Below are positions 9,801-46,400 of a stretch of DNA of 64,000 nucleotides, in pieces. Source of the DNA: Ctena decussata (Eukaryota > Mollusca > Bivalvia > Lucinida > Lucinidae); contig OZ022499.1 in NCBI GenBank assembly GCA_963989385.1, positions 79,349,903-79,413,902 on the forward strand. The letters are read 5' to 3'. Below the pieces are notes generated by a model. That model ran no database searches. It saw nothing but the letters and a program-made list of their open reading frames with translations, and had not been told where the DNA came from. The stretch's first letter is position 1. Every line of letters starts with the position of its first letter. Both the position numbers and the translations under genes were made by a program.

Positions 9801-12800
9801 AGACCCAGATCAGCCTGGACATCTGCCCAGTCCGACCAGACTCTTCACAAAGCACTGATAGGGTAGCTAAGGGTCAAAGCTACTGCCATGTGGACAGCGA
9901 AGACTCTGTCTGATCAGACTGGGTGGATGCCCAGGCTGATCTGAGTCTGCGCTGGGCACACAACCACTTTGTTGACTTTCTCGTGTCATGGCTCACATAT
10001 ACAGTTGACTTTCATTATCTCCAACACTGATATCTCAATGTACCCTCTTCTGTCAAAGTAACTTTATGTAAAGTTTCATCACAACATGTAATTCTTTACA
10101 TTCAAGCTCCTGTTACCTCAAACTACTGAAATCTCAAAGTACTTGTACCATCCTATGTCAAAGTAAATTTATGTAAAGTTTCATTTTGATCATACTTCCG
10201 ACTTCCCATAACTCTGTACACTGAAACTTATCCTAGCTTACTGCCAGTTACTGGTATCTCAAAATAGAAGTTGTTGTTGCTTTACGTCCACGGTAAACAG
10301 CTATGATCAAGTAAGTGGCAGGACCTGGTATCAAACTCAGAACCTCTGGTTCTTGAGTCACATGTCTTTTCGACTTTGCAAAGGCATTTGATAAAGTTCC
10401 TCACCAACGCCTTCTGCATAAGCTGGACTACTATGGGGTGCGCAACTCGACACTCAGTTGGATAGAATCATTTCTCAACCATAGGAAACAGTCAGTCCTG
10501 CTGGATGGAACAAGATCCTCAGAAGCGGACATACTCTTTGGAGTGCCTCAAGGGACAGGCCTTGGGCCACAACTCTTTCTGCATTTATTAATGACCACCC
10601 TGAGACGACAATACACTCAGATGCCAGGCTCTCTGCCGATGATTGTCTCCTTTTTAGACATATCATAACAGAAGACTCAGCCCTCCTACAACAGGACTTG
10701 TCAGCATTGGAGAGACAGGAAACAACCTGGCAAATGCAGTTTCATCCAGAGAAATGCACCGTCATCAGGATCAACCCAAACAGGCGTCAAATTATTCATA
10801 CTAGTTACCAGATCCATGGCCACACCCTGGAAGTGGAAGACAGCAGCAAATATTTGGGAGTTACCATCACACATACAAACTTCCTTGGGTAATTTAGATC
10901 CGCCATTTTGTTGCGCAATCAGCTTGTGTTGCCTCCCTTGACATTTTGTGGGTAGTGTATGCCCATTGCATCCTGAAAATCTTAGAAATTACCTACATGT
11001 GCGCATTAGCCAAATACCTTTTGCGTACATAATATATTACGTTTCAAACAAAGAAAAGATACATTTTGGGTAAATGTTTACCTTAAAATGCACTTTATAT
11101 CTCTCTGCTTCGTTATCCACAAAAACACATCTACTTGGTTTAATGAAAAAATAAGTCTTTTCCGAATTTCCCCTGGTTCACAAATATTTTTCCCTATTTC
11201 TCCGATGAATATACAATATAAAAATATATTGTTGCTATGGTAAACATACTAGTTTTAAAGGTAAACATTAGCCCTGAAGTCACAGCAGGGGCTAAACTGC
11301 CACGCGCTTCGACTGTGATGTTTAAATTTCAACCTGTCAGCTTTGTGATAAAGGATATCTAAATTGTCTTTGGTACAAAAACACTTTCCTCCGAGGTTTC
11401 TTTTTTGGGGGGACATAAATTTTCAATGTTCCTGATATCACATCATGATCACTAAGTTTGTCTGGGGAATGTAGTTCTTGAAACTGGCCAGGAAGCGAAG
11501 TGAGAATTAAATCCAATGTGTTTTTCTCCCGAGTCGGGAAATTCACCAGTTGTTCTAACCCATGGTCATTCATGACATCAATCAACATTTTTCTTCCATT
11601 TACGCCTTAATCCCAGAAGGGGACACAGACGGTGTACTTTTGTACACTCCGGTGTTGCAGGATGAAAGCCTACATATAGCCATGTAGCTATAGTAAGGAT
11701 CTTTAACCTGCACAGGGGATGACTCTCCCTCCACAGGGGGCCTCCAGTTAACGTCCCGATCCGAAGGACGGCACACTTGTTAGCATCATCCCTGCAAATG
11801 ATGCTAGAAAAACGCGTTCGGACATAGGAAGATACACCTCTGGTGAGGCTCGAACCCACAACCTCTGACTTCAGAGTCAAGTGCACTAACCACTGAGCCA
11901 CCGCGCTTATTTGTCCCTCTGACTGACTTAACACTGATCCTGACTTATTAAGTCGGTCTGGCCAAGCAATATCTTTGAAGTTGAAATCCCCAGGATGTCC
12001 TATTCACACCAGTTTAATAAGTTGATATGCTGTCAGAGGTTTATTTGCAGCTTTCAAAAGCAAAATTAGTTTACCAGTTCCTAAATTTTTCACAAAAGCT
12101 GCCAAATTATAACAAGGGGCACGAATCGACGGGAAAATGATCAAAATGCTATGGTAACAGGTACTCGAGGATAACAGAAACTGGGTACCCGACTACCCGG
12201 GTACAAAATCTCGGTACTCGGACAAAACGGACCATGGACAAAACGGACCGGACAAAACAGACCATGGTAAGGACAAAACGGACTATGTTTCAGGACCAAA
12301 CGGACCATGCTATTTGACAAACCAGACCATTAATTGATGCCAATTAAAAGATGAAAGAGTATTTAATTTCCAAAGACAGTGTTATATGGTCACATTTACT
12401 TGACTTCTGTTCATGATCTCAACTATCTTTGATTCTCAAAACAATCTAACCATAGCTCATGACTTTAGGTAAAATAGTTAATCTAATTTTAATTCAAATA
12501 TATTCATTATTAGATGCTTAGGTAACCCGTATGTCTAAAAACATGGTCGTATTGTCTTGAAACGTGGTCCGTTTTGTCCGATTTGTTGTTGATTTTATGC
12601 TTAACGTCCACGGTAAACAACTAAGGTCATGTCGGGATGGTCAGTTAACCTAACCACACTATTCCTGGGCAGGCTTAGACCTCCTAAGCGGTTAACCAGT
12701 ACTAAGTGCACATACTTTCGCCAGTAACTGACAACTGCCCTTCTTGAATCAGTGGAAGGAGAAACGAAAGTATGTGGCCAGACCAGGATGCGAACCACGG

Positions 12801-13203
12801 ACCTCCGACTTACGAGTCGGGTGCCCTACCGATTGCGCTACCCGGCCCGGCCCGTTTTGTCCGAAATACGTGGTCCGAAAAACGTGGTCTGTTTTGTCCT
12901 GAATGTGGTCCGTTTCGTCCTGAACGTGGTCCGTTTTGTCCTAGGCGTGGTCCGTTATGTCCGTGGTCCGTTTTGTCCGTGGTCCGTTATGTCCCTAATT
13001 CCAAAATCTCTACTCAACCCAGCCCTATTCTGTACTACAAAAGACAAATGGTCAGATGGTGTTTAGTCACAGGTTCACAAACCAGCCATCCCCAACACCA
13101 ATTAAACCTACCCAAACAAGGAACCAAAGAATCCTTTTGAGGATTTTAGCTTCTTTTCAGCTTCTTCTATAAACTGTTGCCCCTTCTGCTCGTTGTCGGC
13201 CAT
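723..13203 (-). CDS. NAPA: Alpha-SNAP (soluble NSF attachment protein), 8 exons, complete
   Basis: Adaptor that binds SNARE complexes and recruits and activates the NSF ATPase to take them apart after membrane fusion; cytosolic and peripheral on membranes. Joining minus-strand exons 13112-13203, 9653-9732, 8503-8619, 7347-7393, 5017-5150, 4443-4527, 2322-2495 and 723-869 gives 876 nt, 291 residues plus stop; vertebrate alpha-SNAP is about 295. All junctions are GT-AG and all phases agree. Recognisable stretches in order are MADNEQK at the start, the membrane-contact loop FFGSLFG (residues 25-31), [18 protein letters not shown] (about 87-102), [13 protein letters not shown] (121-133), [20 protein letters not shown] (155-174), [18 protein letters not shown] (195-212) and [16 protein letters not shown]. 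The penultimate Leu290 matches the C-terminal Leu needed to stimulate NSF. Bivalves may have a single alpha/beta form, so the alpha versus beta name is not certain. Introns hold many mobile elements. Confidence 0.95.
1035..1298. mobile_element. Palindromic MITE family C, copy 1
   Basis: It starts TGAGCCGCGACACGACAAAA and ends with the reverse complement, with internal inverted AGACTCAGATCAGCCTGGGC blocks. The same family recurs at 9761, 57969, 61187 and 63078. Nonautonomous; no coding capacity. Confidence 0.75.
1383..1440. repeat. Small foldback repeat
   Basis: Short inverted repeat built on AATTTGCTCC / GGAGCAAATT. Similar foldbacks lie at 8115-8165 and 30014-30078. Confidence 0.5.
1905..2035. 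repeat. Dispersed repeat, AACCTGTCT family
   Basis: Begins TCAAACCTGTCTCAAGAGG and runs through a TTTACACTATATTTT segment. It matches 14648-14800 with the same order of motifs, so it is an interspersed repeat of unknown class. Confidence 0.5.
2322..2495 (-). CDS. NAPA: Alpha-SNAP exon 7
   Basis: 174 nt encoding residues 186-243, including [20 protein letters not shown] and [19 protein letters not shown]. The acceptor is TTGTAG and the donor GTATGA. It is in phase at both ends. Confidence 0.93.
2650..2853. repeat. Near-perfect 200-bp palindrome
   Basis: The left half (GGGGCCGTATTTATAAAATG ... AAATTTGCTCTGG) is mirrored by the right half ending TTATAAATATGGCCCC. A long hairpin-forming MITE inside SNAP intron 6. 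Confidence 0.75.
3111..3765 (+). mobile_element. 5'-truncated RTE-like LINE, 3' end of the reverse transcriptase ORF
   Basis: An open reading frame to 3752 reads [60 protein letters not shown] and [20 protein letters not shown]. This is the C-terminal region of RTE-type retrotransposon polymerases, beyond the catalytic core. The 5' end is missing, so it cannot be active. It ends in a (GAATA)n microsatellite tail at 3741-3765. Tail-end fragments of the same family are at 33534-33620 and 62680-62735. Confidence 0.8.
4160..4405 (+). mobile_element. SINE-like repeat, family 4
   Basis: Its 3' part, GGAGATGGCTCAATACAGCC through GTCATTAAACCCA with an ATCCATCC tail, matches 54510-54745 and the reverse complement of 40690-40845. 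Probably a tRNA-derived SINE; the head is too degraded to fold. Confidence 0.5.
4443..4527 (-). CDS. NAPA: Alpha-SNAP exon 6
   Basis: 85 nt encoding residues 157-185 ([20 protein letters not shown] then DRAVEIYEE). The acceptor is TTTCAG and the donor GTAAGA. Confidence 0.92.
5017..5150 (-). CDS. NAPA: Alpha-SNAP exon 5
   Basis: 134 nt encoding residues 113-157: [20 protein letters not shown], then [20 protein letters not shown], then EESN. The acceptor is TTGCAG and the donor GTGAGC. Confidence 0.93.
5735..5930. mobile_element. Palindromic MITE family A, copy 1
   Basis: Central stem GACCCCTCATTAGAACT / AGTTCAAATGAGGGGTC, with outer ends CTCCAGATAAGA and TTATCTGGAGC. Diverged copy of the 203-bp family described at 30646. 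Confidence 0.75.
6130..6597 (+). promoter_or_regulatory. Possible internal promoter and first coding exon inside SNAP intron 4
   Basis: Non-repetitive plus-strand stretch with TTTTCCGG (about 6167-6174), TGCGCAGGCGT (NRF-1-like, about 6186), a CRE/CCAAT pair TACGTCATTGG (about 6260), then ATG at 6553 in context AAAATGG reading [15 protein letters not shown], followed by CAG and donor GTGAAA at 6598. No downstream exon was recognised, so the gene, if real, is unnamed. Confidence 0.25.
6600..7340. other. Intronic sequence, nothing recognised
   Basis: AT-rich SNAP intron sequence. I found no coding, RNA or clear repeat feature. Confidence 0.4.
7347..7393 (-). CDS. NAPA: Alpha-SNAP exon 4 (47 nt)
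   Basis: Small exon encoding residues 97-112, [16 protein letters not shown], which corresponds to EAINCLNAAIDIYTDM in vertebrates. The acceptor is TTGCAG and the donor GTAAGA directly after the ATG of Met112. Confidence 0.92.
7394..8302. other. Intronic sequence with a minor foldback
   Basis: SNAP intron 3. A short inverted repeat lies near 8115-8165 (GAATTTGCTCC / GGAGCAGATTC); otherwise nothing recognised. Confidence 0.4.
8303..8495. mobile_element. Palindromic MITE family A, copy 2, at the SNAP exon 3 donor
   Basis: The left end CAGAGCTCTAGATAAG and right end CTTATCTAGAGCT are flanked by the direct repeat CACCTACC (8295-8302 and 8496-8503). The right-hand copy contains the exon 3 splice donor, read on the minus strand as GGTAGGTG. 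The central stem is GACCCCTAATCTGAACYGTC and its complement. Confidence 0.85.
8503..8619 (-). CDS. NAPA: Alpha-SNAP exon 3
   Basis: 117 nt encoding residues 58-97 ([20 protein letters not shown] then [19 protein letters not shown]). The donor is CAAG then GTAGGT. That donor lies inside the target-site duplication of a MITE that occupies 8303-8495, so the intron runs straight into the element. Confidence 0.93.
8793..8890. mobile_element. Palindromic MITE family B, copy 1
   Basis: Inverted TAAGTTTTGGGACACTTAAA ... AATTTTCCATTTG and its complement, about 95 bp. Other copies are at 32742-32846, 41045-41101 (partial) and 58735-58822. Confidence 0.7.
9132..9334. mobile_element. Palindromic MITE family A, copy 3
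   Basis: 203 bp, flanked by the 5-bp direct repeat CTTCA (9127-9131, 9335-9339). The central stem GAACCGTCTCGATGAGACGG lies in an almost perfect palindrome. Confidence 0.85.
9653..9732 (-). CDS. NAPA: Alpha-SNAP exon 2
   Basis: 80 nt. The acceptor is TTTCAG and the donor GTAATG. It completes Gly31 and encodes [20 protein letters not shown] and onward to residue 57, the first TPR-like helix pair. It sits about 30 bp from a palindromic MITE starting at 9761. Confidence 0.93.
9761..9995. mobile_element. Palindromic MITE family C, copy 2
   Basis: TGACACGACAAAGCCAACAA at the left, TTGTTGACTTTCTCGTGTCA and GGCTCA at the right; AGATCAGCCTGG inverted blocks inside. Confidence 0.7.
10262..10366 (-). 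mobile_element. SINE family 1 fragment
   Basis: TTTACGTCCACGGTAAACAGC matches the 3' part and GGTATCAAACTCAGAACCTC the tRNA-like head of the SINE at 24529-24803, with the middle missing. Confidence 0.5.
10369..10892 (+). mobile_element. CR1/Jockey-like LINE reverse transcriptase fragment, frameshifted
   Basis: Reads [20 protein letters not shown], then [17 protein letters not shown] and [10 protein letters not shown], typical of reverse transcriptase motifs. A frame change near 10580 is needed to reach [20 protein letters not shown], which carries the catalytic ADD, and then YLGVTI. Lacks both ends; dead. Confidence 0.8.
11337..12003 (-). mobile_element. LINE endonuclease fragment split by a SINE
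   Basis: Minus strand from 12003: [20 protein letters not shown] (GDFN is the endonuclease motif), then a SINE at 11600-11907, then [34 protein letters not shown] and LSDHDVISG (SDH motif) to about 11337. This is the C-terminal half of an exonuclease-endonuclease-phosphatase domain of a CR1/Jockey-like element. Confidence 0.8.
11600..11907 (-). mobile_element. tRNA-derived SINE, family 2
   Basis: Minus strand begins GCGCGGTGGCTCAGTGGTTA, with box A and a box B-like GGTTCGAGCCT, followed by a long body containing GTTAACTGGAGGCCCCCTG. Inserted in the LINE endonuclease above. Confidence 0.7.
12212..12995. mobile_element. Foldback minisatellite element D, copy 1, with nested SINE
   Basis: The left end has tandem GGACAAAACGGACCATG units (about 12226-12310); the right end has the inverted units GTGGTCCGTTTTGTCC (12555-12590 and 12850-12990). 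The second copy at 18242-18803 is the same element in reverse, with matching ends GGTACTCGGACAAAACGG and TTAGGGACATAACGGACC. A SINE splits this copy at 12598-12850. Confidence 0.75.
12598..12850 (-). mobile_element. tRNA-derived SINE, family 1
   Basis: The minus-strand head GCCGGGTAGCGCAATCGGTA is followed by a CCGAC/GTCGG anticodon-like stem and GGTTCGCATCC box B. The body (TGGTTAACCGCTTAGGAGG) and 3' end (TTTACCGTGGACGTTAAGC) match the plus-strand copy at 24529-24803. Confidence 0.8.
13112..13203 (-). CDS. NAPA: Alpha-SNAP exon 1 (start codon)
   Basis: Encodes residues 1-30 plus two bases of Gly31. The ATG is at 13203-13201, and [11 protein letters not shown] matches the family N-terminus, which fixes the start. 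It ends in TTTGG before donor GTAGGT. The sequence upstream (13204-13372) is the likely 5' UTR and promoter; I see no TATA box. Confidence 0.93.
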
Positions 13204-15534: not shown

Positions 15535-16150
15535 GCAACGAAAGGACCGCCTTGGGACGGTCAGTAATAACTACTGGGGGGTTTAAACCGGTTTTACTGG
15601 GCCCAAACCTTCACCCTCACCCTCCGCCGCAGTGCACACAATTTGTTGGTAGTTCGGTTCGTATAGAGGTCCCCTTACTCATCAGAGAGTCATCACGGGC
15701 AACAATAAAAATCAAGAAAAGACTGTGATGAAGCAAGGATGAGGACTCGACAGCCAAAACGTGTTGAGACACCTGGAGATTCCTGGGGCGTCAGCAACAC
15801 CACTGGAACACTGGAGCAAAAGAAGACCACCAGTTGAGCCCCGGTGGGCCAAGAAACAGACAAACATCCGGCCCCAACAAACTTATATATAGAGCTTCAT
15901 GTAGGGCTATCATAGAGTCTGAACCCCGACCCACCGGCGTGCAATTAAAGAGGACAGCAAAGTTGTCAACCGTGATTGAGTTAACCACTAAGCATGCAGA
16001 CTGTCGCATTACATCTATGTTATAGCCAATGCGTTTAAATCGCATGATAATTTTCTTAAATTGATCAGAAAATTCTGTTTTCCCTACGATTTTTCGTAAT
16101 TTATATACTAAGTCACCATAAAATTCAGATTCCGATAGGCCTTGTTGCAA
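15535..16150 (-). mobile_element. Transposable element 3' region with ORF fragment
   Basis: A minus-strand ORF, 16150-15791, reads QQGLSESEFYGDLVYKLRKI, then VGKTEFSDQFKKIIMRFKRI, NIDVMRQSACLVVNSITVDN and CTPVGRGSDSM. I have the impression that similar ORFs recur in bivalve genomes, but I cannot name the transposon class. Its 3' part (15535-15790, with GGGCCCAAACC and GTGTTGAGACACC) is matched in reverse at 30390-30640, so this is a dispersed element. What lies between the two shared parts is unclear. Confidence 0.6.
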
Positions 16151-17025
16151 AAGTGACCTTCATAAGCCAACTTTATTTTCCCCTCAGGAAACTACACTTT
16201 TTGACTACGTATATCTGCAGTCATTTCACACTTGATTTACAATCAACAAAAGGCCTACATGTATTTTACACCTTTTCCTACTATGTCCATATTGGCTGCA
16301 TTGCCTACCATTTCTATAGTGGCTGCATTTTTCCTATATATTTTATATAGCTGCATAAAAAGCTGCATTTTATACAGACCCGAAAAGAGATGAGTTTCAC
16401 TTTTTATATGCTGTGCTCAAGATATAGGGGACCTTTAACCCCCACTGACTTACCGGCCCCTGCCTTACAGCCTCTGCGCTGTGGGAGCCCATTTCTTTTT
16501 TTTGTATTAACTATATTTTTCAGCTTAAATGAAAACAGTGGTGTAACACATCGTAAATGAAAACAGTGGTGCAATAAATCTGCCAATTAACTAATTAATC
16601 TGCAAATTATCTAATAGCATCATATTAAAACATACCTGTCATAACTGTGTCAAAAAAAAACACACACAAAAAACAAACAAACAAAAAACTGTCAGTATAT
16701 AGCCACTTAGCGCCGTAACTTACTAGATCTATGTATATATAGATCAAATGTGCCATCTCCACTATTACCTGAAGTTGCCTCTATTAGCGGAAAATTAGAT
16801 TTAATATTAAAAAATTGCCATACACGTAACATTTATCACTAACATATGCAGTCTATAGCTATTTCAAACAATATAAACACGATTATAATATTTTAAAGAT
16901 TATGTTGTAATCGAAGAAGACTCTCAAGATTGTTCGAGTAAACTTGGAATTCCAAGATGGACCGTGAGCAATCTCGAGATTTTTCAAATTCCAAGTTTGA
17001 CGACAACAGTTGATAATCATCACCA
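16151..17025. other. Intergenic, nothing recognised
   Basis: Low-complexity A/T-rich sequence. An imperfect inverted AACTTGGAATT repeat lies at about 16935-17000. Confidence 0.4.
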
Positions 17026-37426: not shown

Positions 37427-40400
37427 TCAGATGCTTGAAACTTGGTATGTAACATTGCCTAGTGGTCCTCTACCAAGTTTGTTCAAATGGTGGCCACAGG
37501 GTCCAAAATGGCCCTGGGGCAGGGGTCTTGGGTTTGAAACTAAAAGATACTTAAAAATCTTCTTCTCCAGAACTGCTTGGCTCAGAGGCTTGAAATTTGG
37601 TATGAAGCATTGTCTAGTGGTCCTCTACCAAGTTTGTTCAAATGGTGGCCCCAGGGTCCAAAATGGCCCTGGGGCGGGGGGTCTTGGGTTCGAAACTAAA
37701 AAATACTTAAAAATCTTCTTCTCCAGAACTGCTTGGCTCAGATGCTTGAAACTTGGTATGTAACATTGCCTTGTGGTCCTCTACCAAGTTTGTTCAAATG
37801 GTGGCCCCAGGGTCAAAAATGGCCCTGGGGCAGGGGGTCTTGGGTTTGAAACTAAAAGATACTTAAAAATCTTCTTCTCCAGAACTGCTTGGCTCAGAGG
37901 TTTGAAATTTGGTATGTAGCATTGTCTTGTGGTCCTCTACCAAGTTTGTTCAAATGGTGGCCCCAGGGTCCAAAATGGCCCTGGGGCAGGGGGTCTTGGG
38001 TTCGAAACTTAAAAATACTTAAAAATCTTCTTCTCCAGAACTGCTTGGCTCAGATGCTTGAAATTTGGTTTGGAACATTGCCTTGTGGTCCTCTACCAAG
38101 TTTGTTTAAATGGTGGCGGCCCCAGGGTCCAAATTGGCCCTGGGGCAGGGGGTCTTGGGTTTCAGAACTAAAAAATACTTAAAAATCTTCTTCTTCAGAA
38201 CCGCAAGGCTCAGCTGCTTGAAATTTGGTATGTAGCATTCTCTAGTGGTCCTCTACCAAATTTGTTCAAATGGTGGCCCCAGGGTCCAAAATGGCCCTGG
38301 GGCAGGGGTTCTTTGATTCGAAACTAAAAAATACTTAAAAATGTTCTTCACCAGAACTGGTTGCCTCAGATGCTTGAAATTAGGTTTGTTACATTGCCTA
38401 GTGGCCCTCTACCAAGTTTGTTCAAATGGTGGCCCCAGGGTCCAAAATGGCCCCGGGGCAGGGAGTCCCAGGTGTGAACCATAGAAATACATAGAAAAAT
38501 TCTTCTTCTTCAGAACCTCAAGGCTCAGATGCTTGAAATTTGGTATGTAGCTTTGCCTAGTAGTCTTTTACCAAGTTTGTTCAAATGATGGCCCCAGGGT
38601 CTAAAATGGCCCAACCCAAGGGGGTCCTGGGTTTGAACCATAGAAAAATATTAAAAAATCTTCTTCTTCAGAACCACTTGGCTTAGATGCTTGAAATTTA
38701 GTATGTAGCATTGCCTAGTGGTCCTTTACCAAAATTATTCAAATGATGGCCACAGGGTCCAAAATGGCCCTGCCCCAGGGGGTCCAGGGTTCGAACCATA
38801 GCAATACATAGAAAATATTCAAAAATCTTCTTCAAAACCATTTGGAAGTGGTTGCAAACTATCAGGTTTGTTAAATGATGACCCTTGTTTGACCTTTAAC
38901 CTTTTTGGTCAGGTGAGCGATTCAGGGCCTCTTGTCCCTCTTGTTTAAAGACCTATATCTCCCTAACCCATGGATGGATTCTTTTGATACTTGCACTGTA
39001 GTTAGATATTGGTCCAAAGTTTAACATGGTACCACCCCCACCCCCTCCTTGACCTTGATGTCAAGGTCATGGACTTATAAAATTGGGAGTTTTTTGGGAC
39101 TGGATGTTTTGGTTAAAGTTTTCTAAAGCCCAGTAGCTCCTTAACCCATGGATGGATTCCTTTGATACTTGCACTGTAGTTAGATATTGGTCCGAAGTTT
39201 TCCAAGGTACTACCCCCACCCCCCTCAGTGACCTTGATGTCAAGGTCATGGACTTAGAAAATTGTCTTTTTATTGATTGGATGTTTTGGTTAAAGTTTTT
39301 TAATGACACATATCTCCTGAACCCATAGATGAGTTCTTTTTATATTTGCACTGTAGTTAGATATTAGTCCAAAGTTTTACAGAGTACTACCCCAGCCCTG
39401 CTCGGTGACCTTGATGTCAAGGGTAGGGACTTAGGAAATTTGGTCTTTATTAAAGTTTTCTAATTGCGTACTGATTCATAATGCTTGGCAGAGATTTAGT
39501 TTACACTTGAACTGATGTTAGGCACTTTTTTGAGTTTTTACAAAACACTATATACTTACTCGACTGGATGACCTTGATGTCAAGGTCATGGACTTTGAGT
39601 TTTGTCTAAAGATTTTGATTAGTTTTATATTAATGAAGACATAATTTCACAGTGCCACGATGGACTCAGTTGATACTAATACTTGGACTGATGTTAGATA
39701 ACGGTTAAAGGCTTTGATACATCCTAGCCCTGCCCTCCTCCCCCCCTACCCCTTAGTTCTTTGACCTCAAGCTCATGGACTTTGAAATTTCATGTGGATT
39801 TTTTTTATTTATTTTAAGACATTTCTGAGATAGCTTTTGTTCATAAATGTGTTGTCATAATGGAATGCTTGCCTGAAGTTTTATACATAGCAGTCAACAC
39901 CACCATAGCGACAGTGTGATGGGCAAGCACCTATTCAGGCGAGCTATGCTGTCGGGCGACAGCTCTTGTTGAGATATGGAGCGGACACAAAGCATAAATG
40001 AAATTACTGTATGAAAAATGCAGTTGATTGCGATGCTTTTATATTTAAAATACTAAGGGACTTAATTCCGTCAAAACTGAAAGTAGGATTATGGTTCTTT
40101 TTCACTGCAAATCATCTGATAGTGTTTTATATTTGTACAAACTTTCATGTAGAAATCTTAAACATTTTTCGAGATATAGAGCGGACACGAAATTTTACCG
40201 TTTGCCCTTTGACCTCTAAGTGTGACCTTGACCTTTGTCACACATTGTTTAAACATGAGTTCTGCACATTGTTTCCATAAGGCAAACATTTGACCCAAGT
40301 TTCAAAAAAATCTTTCAAGAGTTTAAGGAGATATGGAGTTGACACGAAAAGTTAACAGACTGATGGACAGACTGACAGACGGACGGAGGCCACAACATAA

Positions 40401-43400
40401 TACGACCCATCTTCAACAGGCATATAAAAATTGTCTACCATAAATATTGTAAGTCTTGAGACAAACAGGGCTGAGCAAACAGTGCAGACCCAGATCAGAC
40501 TGCTCCCGCAGGAGCAGTCTGATCTGGGTGAACACAGTTTGCTATTCTATTTGCATATATTGGACACATGAAGGTAATGTAAAACCAAACTGTTCTATTT
40601 TTAGAACATTTCAGTACTTGTTTTAGGTGTCCCAATTTTTATGGTAATTCAAATTTAAGAATAATCACGATTGGTTGTTTTGAGTTTAACAGCTCTTTGA
40701 GACAGTATTTCAGTCTATCTTGAGTCGTCCCCAGTGGGAAAGAAAAGAGATCTGATAAGTGAGAGAAAAAATATCCAAACAAACCCCACCCACACCTACT
40801 GAGAGCACAGTAGGCCCTTGCACTATATTATCCAAATTAGTAGAATGCCCCATCTCTGAAAGTTGATAATCACACAAGCAGGTTACACTGATTGGTTAAC
40901 ATGCTCTATTATTTCAGATAGCTACTATTAGTATAGACAAAATAACAAACTCATGATGTCCATGGTCTGGATTTGTATCATATCAAAGTCATCCGTTTCC
41001 AAAGAAAAACAACTACACTCTGGAAGGAACATGGAGATATAAACAGTGTGCTTAAATATTGGGACACCCAAAAACCAGTAATTTTCCATTTGGGACAATG
41101 GACACCTAAAATAAGTACTGAAATTTTCTAAAAATAGAACAGTTTGGTTTTACATTACCTTAATGTGTCCAATATATGCAAATGGAATAGCAAACTGTGT
41201 TCACCCAGATCACAGGAGCAGTCTGATCTGGGTCTGCACTGTTTGCTCAGCCCTGTTTGTCTCAAGACTTACAATATTTATGGTAGACAATTTTTATATG
41301 CCCGTCGAAGATGGGTTATATTATGTTGTGGCCTCTGTCAGTCTGTCTATCAGTCTGTCCATCCGTCTGTCTGTCCAATAACTTTTCGTGTCCACTCCAT
41401 ATCTCCTTAACCTCTTGAAAATTTTTTTGAAACTTCGGTCCAATGTTTGCCTTATCGAGACGATGTGCAGAACTCATATTTCAACAATGTGACACAAAGG
41501 TCAAGGTCTAAATTAGAGGTCAAAGGGCAAATGGTAAAATTTTGTGTCCTCTCCATATCTCGAAAACTGTTTTTCTACACAACCCTACTTTCAGTTTTGA
41601 TGGAATTATGTCCCTTTGTATTTTACATACAGTAATTTCATAGATGCTTCGTGTCCGCTCCATATCTCAAAAACCGTTTAAGATTTCTTCATGAAATTAA
41701 AATTAAAAGTTCCTTAAAGAGCAGAGAATACATACAGAAGTAGGAACATGGGCCAGACTACGTAGTTTCGGCTAATAAAGCCTTGTCAGTGACCCTGACA
41801 ATATCTGGTGACGAAACCAGAGAGAAAAAAAAAAGCATACTGTAAATTCTTAATTTTAATTGGGCAGTCGATTCAAAGACTGATTAGTTTCAGAATGATC
41901 CAAATAATATAAAAGACGATGATCTAGAACAATAGTCTAATCGATCTCAAATTTAAGATTTCTCAGAATCTATCCTCTGATCTCAAAGGATGTAAATAAA
42001 ATATAACCTGCACTATGGATGATGTAGGGGGAGACGTTTTAGGGCCCCCATACGGCACAACACCAGCGGCAGTGAGGTAAAATTAAAATCTTATAAAGTT
42101 CCTTCAAGAGCAGAGAATACATACAGAAGTAGGAACATGGGCCAGACTACGTAGTTTCGGCTAATAAAGCCTCGTCAGTGACCCTGACAATATCTGGTGA
42201 TGAAACCAGAAAAAAAAAAAGCATACTATAATTTCTTAATTCTAATTGGGCAGTCATTTCAAAGACTGATTAGTTTCAGAATGATCCAAATAATATAAAA
42301 GACAATGATCTAGAATAATAGTCTAATCAATCTCAAATTTTAGATTTCTCAGAATCTATCTTCTGATCTCAAAGGATGTAAATAAAATTGGAGTTTGTAG
42401 AAACATAAAGCACCATCAGAGGATGTGCAAAGAAAAAGAACCATAACCCTACTTCCTTTTTAGCTCACCTGAGCCAAAGGCTCAGGGTGAGCTATTGTGA
42501 TCACCCAGTGTACGTCGTCCGTTGTGCGCCGTGCGTCGTCCGTCGTCAACAATTTGCTTTAAATGACATCTTCTCTGAAACCGCTAGGCCTAGGGCTTTG
42601 ATATTTGGTATGAAGCATTACCTAGTGGACCTCTACCAAGTTTGTTCAAATGGTGGCCCCAGGGTCCAAAGTGGCCCTGGGGCTGGGGGTCGGGTTCGAA
42701 ACTAAAATATACTTAAAAATCTTCTCCTCCAGAACTGCTTGGCTCAGATGCTTGAAATTTTGTATGTAGCATTGCCTAATGGTACTTTACCAAGTTTGTT
42801 CAAATGGTGGTCCCAGGGTCCAAAATGGCCCAGGGGTAGGGAGTCCCAGGTTTGAACCATAGAAATACATATAGAAAAATATTAAAAAATCTTTTTCTTC
42901 AGAACCACAAGGCTCAGATGTTTGAAATTTGGTATGAAGCATTGCCTAATAGTCCTTTACCAATTTTGTTCAAATGATGGCCCCAAGGTCCAAAATAGCC
43001 CCGTCCCTGAGGTCCTGGGTTTGAACCTGAGAAATACATTGAAAAATATTTCAAAATCTTCTACATCAGAACCGCAAGGCTCAGGTGCTTGAAATTTGGT
43101 ATGTAGCATTGCCTTATAGTCCTTTACCAAGTTTGTTCAAACAAGGGCCCAAGGATCCAAAATGGCCTCTTGGCATGGAGTCCAAGGTTTGAACCATAGA
43201 AATCCAGAGAATAATATTCAAAAAATTTCTCCTTCAGAACCACAAGGCTTAGATGCTTGAAATTTGGTATGTAGCATGGCCTAGGAATCCTTTACCAAAT
43301 TTGTTCAAATGGTGGCCCCAGGGTCCAAAATGGCCTTGTGGCAGGGAGTCCTAGGTTTGAACCATAGAAATACATAGAAAAATATTCAAAAAGCTTCTTC

Positions 43401-46400
43401 TTCAGAACCACTTGGCTCAGATGCTTGATATTTGGTATGTAGCATTGCCTAATGGTCTTTTACCAAGTTTGTTGAAAGGATGACCCCAGGGTCTAAAATG
43501 GCCCCGCCCCGGGGGTCCTGGGTTAGAACCATAGAAATACATAGAAAAATATTAAAAATTCTTCTTCTTTAGAACCACTTTGCTCAGATGCTTGAAATTT
43601 GGTATGTAGCATTGCCATGTAATCCTTTATCAAGTTTGTTCAAATGATGGCCCCAGGGTTGAAAATGGCCCTGTGACAGGGAGTCCTGAGTTTGAACCAT
43701 AGAAATACATAGAAAAATATTCAAAAATCTTCTTCTTCAGCACCAATTGGCTCATATGCTTGAAATTTGGTATGATGCATTGCCTGGTGGACTCCTACAA
43801 AGTTTGTATAAATGGTGGCCCTGGGATCCAAAATGGCCCTGGGGCAGGGGGTCTTGGGTTCGAAACTATAATATACTTAAAAATCTTCTTCTCCAGAACT
43901 GCTTCGCTCAGATGCTTGAAATTTGGTATGTAGCATTGCCTAGTGGTCTTCTACCAAGTTTGTTCAAATGGTGGCCCCAGGGTCCAAAATGGCCCTGGTG
44001 CAGGGAGTCCCAGGTTTGAACCATAGAAATACATAGAAAAATTCTTCTTCTTCAGAACCGCAAGGCTCAGATGCTTGAAATTTGGTATGTAGCTTTGCCT
44101 AGTAGTCTTTTACCAAGTTTGTTCAAATGATGGCCCCAGGGTCTAAAATGGCCCAACCCAAGGGGGTCCTGGGTTTGAACCATAGAAAAATCTTCTTCTT
44201 CACAACTGCAAGGCTCAGATGCTTGAAATTTAGAATGTATTATTGCCTAGTGGTCCTTTACCAAGATTATTTAAATGATGGCCCCAGGGTCCAAAATGGC
44301 TCCGCCTCAGGGGGACTAGGGTTTGAACCATAGCAGTGCGTAGAAAAATATTAAAAAATCCTTTTCTTCAGAACCATTTGGAAATGGTTGCAAACTATCA
44401 GGTTTGTTCAAATGATGACCCTAGTTTTACTTTTAACCTTTTTGTTCAGGTGAGCGATTCAGGGCCACTTGGCCCTCTTGTTTAACAAAACTACGCCCCT
44501 TTGTATTTTTCATATAGTAATTTCATATAAACTTCATGTCTGCTCCATATCTTGAAAACAGTTTAAGATTTCTTAATGAAAGTTTGTATAAATATAAAGC
44601 ACCGTCAGACAATGTGTAGAGAAAAAGAACCATAACCCCACTTTCAGTTTTGATGGAATTACGTCCCTTTGTATTTTTCATATACATGTAGTAATTTCAT
44701 ACAAGCTTCATGTCAGCTCCATATCACGAAAAGCATTTAAGATTTCTTCATGAAAGTTTGTATAAATATAAAGCACCATCAGAGGATGTGCACAGAAAAA
44801 GAACCATAACCCTACTTTTACTTTTAACAAAATTACGCCCTTTTGTATTTTTCCTATTGTAATTTTGTATTTAATTCGTGTCTGCTCCATATCTCTTAAC
44901 CCTTTGAAAGATTTATTTTTGAATTTTGAGTCAAATGGTCACCTTATTGAGGCAAGGTGCAGAGCTGATATTTCAACAATGTTTGACAAAGGTCAAGGTC
45001 ACAGAGGTCAAACTTCAAAAGGTCACATTATTTGTCCGCTCCATATCTCGAAAACCGTATTTGATTTCTTCATAGAAGTTTATACAAATATGAAGCATCA
45101 TCAGACAATGTGCAGAGAAAAAGAACCATTACCCTACTTTCAGTTTTGATGGCACTATGCACTTTTGTATTTTTATATAGTAATTTCATACTAGCTTTGT
45201 ATCTGCTCCATATCTTGAAAACTGTTTAAGATTTCTTCATGAAAGTTTGTACAAATATCAAACGATATGCAGAGAAAAAGAACCATAACCCTACTTTCAG
45301 GTCTGGTGGAATTATGCCCCTTTGTAATTTTTGTCTAGGAATTTCATATTAGCTTTGTTTGTTTTTAGCTCACCTGAGCATGAAGTGCTCAAGGTGAGGT
45401 ATTGTGATCGGTCTTTGTCCGTCGTCCGTTGTCCGTCGTTCGTTGTCCGGCGTCAACTTTTACTTTAAACGACTTCTTCTCCAAAACTGCTGGACGGATT
45501 TCGAAATAATTACATGGAAATGTTCCTTGGGGGACTCTCTACCAAAATTGCTCAAATGGTTCCGCCCCGCTGAACAATATGGCCACCAGAGCTAAAAATA
45601 GAAAAACCTTTAAACGACTTCTCCTCCAAAACTGCTGGGCCGATTTTGAAATAATTTCACAGAAATGTTCCTTAGAAGACCCTCTACCAAAATTGCTCAA
45701 ATGGTTCCACTCGGCTGAACAATATGGCCGCCAGAGCTAAAAATAGAAAAACCTTTAAACAACTTCTCCTCCAAAACTGCTGGGCAGATTTTGAAATAAT
45801 TACACAGAAATGTTCCTTAGGGGACCCTCTACCAAAATTGCTCAAACGGTTCCGCTCCGCTGAACAATATGGCCGCCGGAGCTAAAAATAGAAAAACCTT
45901 TAAACAACTTCTCCTCCAAAACTGCTGGGCCGATTTTGAAATAATTTAATACAAATGTTCCTTAGGAGACCCTCTACCAAAATTGCTCAAACGGTTCTGC
46001 TCCGCTGAACAATATGGCCGCCGGAGCTAAAAATAGAAAAACCTTTAAACGACTTCTCCTCCAAAACTGCTTGGCCGATTTTGAAATAATTTAACACAAA
46101 TGTTCCTTAGGAGACCCTCTACCAAAATTGCTCAAACGGTTCCGCTCCGCTGAACAATATGGCCGCCAGAGCTAAAAATAGAAAAACCTTTAAATGACTT
46201 CTCCTCCAAAACTGCTGGGTCAATTTTGAAATAATTTCACAGAAATGTTCCTTAGGAGACCCTCTGCCAAAATTGCTCAAACAGTTCCGCTCCGCTGAAC
46301 AATATGGCCACCAGAGCTAAAAATAGAAAAAAGCTTAAAACATCAACGCCTCTGAAGCCAATGGCTCGATTTCAAAAAAATTTCACAGAAATGTTTTTCT

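Follow-up and report, generated by a model that had tools for sequence, protein, structure and literature searches.

According to the published accounts, retrozyme repeats are 150–450 bp long with a GC content below 45%, and the units of mussels measure ~350–390 bp (PMC7229834). It was reported that the mussel ribozymes are devoid of most of the nucleotides making the loop 1–loop 2 contact in the canonical type I hammerhead, that the mussel ribozyme is slow (~0.1 per min) and that some mussel circles are predicted to contain a blocked ribozyme (PMC7229834). As far as a review of 2020 extends, the repeats of metazoan retrozymes show no conserved motif revealing an autonomous helper (PMC7761336). 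For repeats of Nematostella, LINE-like target duplications of 15 bp were described (PMC4918200).

Penelope-like elements are among the closest described systems as well. In the published account of the Penelope-like enzyme from Anolis, the enzyme cuts both strands and prefers AT-rich DNA, its start site is not homologous to the target and uncut RNA is its main substrate (PMC11167929). Moreover, the single changes C3G and G8C were described to abolish the activity of the Anolis Penelope hammerhead (PMC11167929).

Here, a 64-kb stretch of DNA from the bivalve Ctena decussata, in the following called the window, was analyzed, for which a retrozyme-like insertion with paired hammerhead ribozymes had been predicted. 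We conclude that this insertion is probably an old and partly decayed metazoan non-LTR retrozyme, i.e., a member of an already known group. The confidence in this assignment is lowered by Rfam scores below threshold and by the missing target duplication.

Structure of the insertion

The insertion spans 695 bp and was resolved into tandem copies of one unit by copy alignment and repeat search:

41697–42391, no strand assigned: whole insertion, ~1.79 units of 389 bp
41697–42082, minus strand: unit copy 1, full length, 386 bp owing to small indels
42083–42388, minus strand: unit copy 2, partial, 306 bp, without a counterpart of 42003–42082

As the second copy ends at 42388, ~80 bp of the unit (42003–42082) are present only once. 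The two copies differ by 13 substitutions in 294 aligned sites (nine transitions and four transversions, five of the 13 being CpG-type changes) and by one 3-base gap. Both analyses confirmed that the copies have the same orientation, with the hammerhead motifs 389 bp apart on the minus strand. The prediction that the insertion is non-coding and hence nonautonomous was also borne out, the longest stop-to-stop frame across it encompassing 43 aa. The unit at 41756–42144 is AT-rich (GC 0.373; window ~0.34–0.44). The insertion thus shows what is used to define retrozymes, i.e., tandem repeats of ~150–450 bp as dimer or more, a GC content below 45% and no coding region.

The best reading is a nonautonomous, retrozyme-like insertion whose minus strand is the sense strand, and it is in agreement with the published molluscan retrozymes in size, composition and tandem layout. 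Self-cutting RNA motifs of this sort are known from mussels and corals. As described for the non-LTR retrozymes of Mytilus galloprovincialis, it combines a type I hammerhead with low-GC non-coding repeats, and its 389-bp unit is at the top of the mussel range of ~350–390 bp; unlike in the mussel, one core is mutated here, and the likeness refers to the published description and not to the sequence (Cervera and de la Pena, 2020, PMC7229834). Plant LTR retrozymes are reported as non-coding dimers with hammerheads as well, but their hammerheads are of type III, they have LTRs and 4-bp target duplications, and their units measure close to 700 bp (PMC4918200). A plant-type LTR retrozyme was rejected for this locus, as stem I is the open stem and the target duplication is 0–1 bp.

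The main rival explanation is a piece of a non-autonomous Penelope-like element, i.e., a pseudo-LTR repeat with a small hammerhead that moved as uncut tandem RNA and without a circle, which we regard as unlikely. Penelope-like elements were described to form tandems or partial tandems with small type I hammerheads (PMC11167929, PMC7761336), and the insertion resembles the published examples in its partial tandem layout, an end beyond the hammerhead cut, a short unpaired-looking hammerhead and an AT-rich target, whereas it differs from them in having no ORF (PMC11167929, PMC7761336). Neither a reverse transcriptase nor a GIY-YIG frame, which together characterize Penelope-like ORFs, was found in the insertion, whose longest frame has 43 aa. 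Furthermore, the non-coding unit is complete and bordered only by its own next copy, and size and composition match the retrozymes as published (PMC7229834); these points speak against the Penelope-like piece.

The integration site

The sequence around the insertion is a host repeat, for which inverted arms were found in the repeat search. It covers 40042–41696 and has related stretches near 34.2–34.6, 36.7–37.0 and 44.5–45.3 kb; its arms 40160–40632 and 41100–41572 differ at 31 of 461 sites, and with these long inverted arms it is probably a foldback-type element. Directly beside the insertion, at 42531–44424, ~11–12 diverged tandem copies with a spacing of mostly 137–170 bp were observed.

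The empty site is uninterrupted in all seven paralogous host repeats that were aligned within the window. These were picked from the BLAST list as a non-exhaustive set and comprise the reversed arm at 40074–40200 and six repeats near 34.5, 36.7, 36.9, 44.6, 44.8, and 45.3 kb. The sequence CATGAAAGTTTGTA is present in four of the seven, and the other three differ by one or two bases. The following features define the junctions:

40074–40191, minus strand: inverted host-repeat arm with the empty site at 40143 (repeat search, alignments)
41694–41696, no strand assigned: AAA common to target flank and unit, with the unit counterpart at 42080–42082 (junction comparison)
42389–42391, no strand assigned: TGG at the right junction (empty-site comparison)

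The left flank ends with CATGAAA and the right flank resumes with AGTTTGTA after the TGG. Comparison of these flanks with the empty sites shows that the target is intact, nothing having been lost, and that the duplication is at most 1 bp; the predicted boundaries 41697 and 42391 agree with the empty-site copies. An expansion of the host repeat or of a satellite was rejected, as the insertion interrupts a repeat that is uninterrupted at seven out of seven places and as BLAST of the insertion against the 64-kb window yielded no further copy but only the insertion itself and its own two copies.

The TGG may have been added as filler, or TGGA could derive from a TGAAA duplicate that has decayed. 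A target duplication in a retrozyme is expected to exceed 4 bp when present; by empty-site comparison it is 0–1 bp here, with a decayed TGAAA/TGGA pair being possible. This differs from the 15-bp duplications reported for the Nematostella repeats, as no clear duplication is present (PMC4918200).

One end of the insertion lies 247 nt ahead of the first cut site and the other 59 nt past the second. As the ends are off the cut sites and the length exceeds one unit, the insertion was not copied from a linear monomer released by ribozyme cleavage, and the template was therefore a circle or an uncut multimer. The layout is compatible with both alike, which counts for the Penelope-like piece. Moreover, it was reported that the purified Anolis enzyme starts internally, that hammerhead mutants are without effect on insertion and that unprocessed RNA is the dominant substrate (PMC11167929), all of which would suit a Penelope-like piece. 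The published data place the Anolis start 85–92 nt beyond the hammerhead cut (by subtraction), compared to 59 nt here, and no AC-rich start site was seen at the insertion (PMC11167929). The 3-base overlap is located at the end where the first strand would start on a minus-strand RNA, which fits target priming inside the RNA. As far as the Anolis account applies, the non-homologous start site speaks against a microhomology primer, and uncut RNA as main substrate speaks against the need for a circle (PMC11167929).

The hammerhead motifs

A metazoan non-LTR retrozyme should have a type I hammerhead with a conserved core, and this is present in copy 2 but deviates at G8 in copy 1:

42139–42184, minus strand: copy 2, type I hammerhead motif with the intact core CTGACGA and a cut predicted at 42145/42144
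41750–41795, minus strand: copy 1, hammerhead motif with A in place of G8 in its core (CTGACAA), not found by the descriptor
42146–42155 (copy 1: 41757–41766), minus strand: palindromic stem III ACTACGTAGT, a perfect 10-nt palindrome

On the minus strand, copy 2 reads from stem I (GGGTCA) through the core CTGACGA and stem II (GGCT-TTATT-AGCC) to GAA, stem III (ACTACGTAGT), the cleavage C and stem I (TGGCCC). Stem I GGGTCA/TGGCCC, the GAAA and the GTC cleavage site were confirmed for each motif. Stem II was recognized correctly as GGC/GCC but can be extended to 4 bp (GGCT/AGCC, loop TTATT). The loopless stem III CTAC/GTAG had to be revised, as the sequence is in fact ACTACGTAGT, which in the monomer closes only as 2–3 bp with a loop of 4–6 nt. 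This stem III may thus form a short hairpin, or it may connect two copies into a double hammerhead. The newt and axolotl retrozymes are described with a weak stem III and a palindromic loop as well, better cutting being expected for them as dimer, whereas their units are 330 and 350 bp long and of other sequence (PMC7229834). Compared to these published examples, the stem III sequences of two copies could form a 10-bp duplex in the insertion (PMC7229834).

The motif of copy 1 is identical to that of copy 2 apart from the change of G8 to A (plus strand: T at 41784 compared to C at 42173), which is a CpG change and for which decay after insertion is a simple account. The presence of two intact hammerheads was therefore rejected: copy 2 has the full core, whereas copy 1 with CTGACAA does not. 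The CTGANGA core was missing from the elements named in the original prediction. Like the exchange of G8 for C, that of G8 for A is severely damaging to a hammerhead. As copy 1 has no G8, this locus should not yield a 389-nt RNA through simple cis-cleavage at both motifs. The retrozyme-like reading still is the best one for the insertion, but the locus does not represent an intact tandem unit.

Next, chance occurrence has to be considered. The descriptor requires an exact CTGANGA core, stem I of at least 4 bp, stem II of at least 3 bp, stem III of at least 2 bp and, at the cleavage position, TH; the one motif it finds in the 64-kb window, searched on both strands, is that of copy 2. In dinucleotide shuffles of the window, at least one motif occurred in 8 of 200 (mean 0.04), and stem I of at least 6 bp in 4 of 200. 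A tighter pattern matched once in the window and in none of 100 shuffles, but this test is circular, as the stem III letters of the copy 2 site are built into the pattern.

No Rfam hammerhead reached its gathering score in the 64-kb window, the sole match being a tRNA, so that at Rfam thresholds the computational check largely speaks against the original prediction. A relaxed scan of 901 bases gave seven matches up to an E-value of 10, the majority clearly unrelated, such as a Listeria sRNA with 22.1 bits. Hammerhead_3 matched copy 2 with the best E-value (20.0 bits, E 0.22, gathering 48.5); since it aligns in the type III permutation, it supports only the core and stem II. RAGATH-1-hammerhead matched copy 2 with 16.2 bits (E 9.1, gathering 56.3) in the right permutation, which is a further point for the Penelope-like piece. 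Copy 1 is absent from these relaxed matches (901 bases, E up to 10). The absence of Hammerhead_1 says little, because overlapping weaker members of a clan are not displayed in the relaxed scan. Altogether, the support from Rfam is weak.

These data bear on the possibility that a tandem-duplicated non-coding insertion contains a hammerhead-like motif by coincidence. The motifs in 8 of 200 shuffled windows, the Rfam scores far below threshold and a bacterial contig matching a similar exact pattern without stem I pairing are in line with it, but a 6-bp stem I and a full core occur here inside an insertion of published size and layout, and scaling the shuffle mean of 0.04 to 695 bp yields an expectation of ~0.0004. 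We consider such a coincidence highly improbable.

Searches in sequence collections and neighboring features

No match was found in phage or plasmid records, and the two hammerhead patterns of the element had none in viral contigs; animal genomes are not expected in these collections. A single match of one pattern to a prokaryote contig (L001) was without stem I pairing and was taken as chance. A wider hammerhead pattern found four viral contigs, three with a stem I of 4–6 bp and one with none. The hammerhead-like motifs of the three (L003, 7991–8026; L004, 3091–3124; L005, 1346–1379; stem I of 4, 6, and 6 bp, respectively) are probably phage hammerheads. A search for relatives with a 40-aa frame of the unit, which is not a gene, gave no candidate.

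Elsewhere in the window, the Rfam tRNA match is located at 12775–12847 on the minus strand (34.9 bits, above gathering); it was not reported by ARAGORN and is perhaps a tRNA-derived repeat. A scan for reverse transcriptase outside the insertion covered five of the 12 window frames of at least 110 aa, the sole match being a weak one in the frame 10485–10889 (19.4 bits compared to a cut-off of 29.6). The frame 15791–16159 on the minus strand has 4270 relatives in the protein collection and is probably part of an abundant transposable element.

Predicted folding and cleavage

All folds were modeled without tertiary contacts or co-transcriptional folding. The minus-strand 389-mer is predicted to fold better than 100 of 100 shuffles (z −2.67), in line with what was published on the RNAs of retrozymes. 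The plus strand likewise folds fairly well, its level being reached by 3 of 100 shuffles. For the 46-mer, the hammerhead fold has −10.9 kcal/mol compared to best folds of −14.2 (copy 2) and −13.2 (copy 1), and in longer context it is 3.9–4.6 above the best fold. The competitor is the following structure:

42172–42190 (copy 1: 41783–41801), minus strand: 7-bp hairpin over the catalytic core, weakly significant

Its coordinates are all that was taken from a bacterial-type promoter/terminator scan, which is not meaningful for an animal genome. In the predicted fold of the whole minus-strand insertion this core hairpin dominates (inner pairs ~0.99), the palindromes pair between the copies (0.70–0.83) and the probability of the hammerhead stem I is at most 0.004. 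Shuffling of the flanks showed that an off-switch hairpin is weak as a significant feature: with both flanks shuffled, all seven core bases were blocked in 26 of 1000 cases, and with only the upstream flank shuffled in 41 of 1000, and the cost of 3.8 kcal/mol for forming the hammerhead was matched in 396 and 139 of 1000, respectively, which is not unusual. Counting against the retrozyme are this hiding of the core in the best folds, the fair folding of the plus strand, the broken core of copy 1 and the absence of a second insertion from the window. The hidden core in the predicted folds agrees with the slow ribozyme and the blocked circles reported for mussels (PMC7229834).

For two 46-mers, the unconstrained best fold is exactly the double hammerhead (−37.7), while in longer context the two-strand fold retains the palindrome duplex but no longer contains the hammerhead. 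The idea that stem III is specially fit for dimers was rejected, the effect being modest with 19 of 300 random inner hexamers reaching at least the same gain when tested in the 46-mer. Within the double hammerhead, the cut site of copy 1 would come to lie opposite the intact core of copy 2, making a two-step release of the 389-nt RNA conceivable.

Proposed life cycle and significance

For the favored retrozyme, tandem source copies would give rise to minus-strand read-through RNA, and the type I hammerheads would cut it either in cis or as pairs linked via the palindromic stem III. A ligase of the host would circularize the resulting ~389-nt monomers. The reverse transcriptase would be borrowed, perhaps from a Penelope-like element; it would initiate within the RNA, with the nicked target and presumably its AAA serving as primer, and would copy ~1.8 times round the circle or along an uncut multimer. 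The hammerhead of copy 1 would still have been intact at the time of insertion. Cleavage, the circle and the identity of the enzyme are steps that we infer.

A joint reading that combines an internally primed circle, Penelope-like copying and a gate formed by hairpin and stem III is tentative and rather unlikely. For its first part, three target bases would prime the circular RNA 59 nt beyond the hammerhead cut, and a Penelope-like enzyme would copy it 1.8 times and cut both strands nearly flush. For its second part, the core hairpin may, together with the palindromic stem III, serve as a gate by which the circle stays closed and cutting is mainly confined to tandem RNA. The Anolis work, as far as published in PMC11167929, weakens this reading as it favors uncut RNA. 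If true, it would tie non-LTR retrozymes to Penelope-like helpers, and the junctions would supply a record of the integration chemistry, so far lacking for animal retrozymes.

If the insertion is only an ordinary decayed copy, it still adds one more locus to a known family. In a literature search of partial coverage, no junction analysis of a bivalve retrozyme was found. The main value of the locus is that a retrozyme insertion and its empty site are preserved in the same window, providing an exact pair of junctions. The identity of the helper is beyond the reach of one locus, but a genome-wide set of such junctions could test whether the helper is Penelope-like or a LINE and whether a circle or a multimer serves as template.
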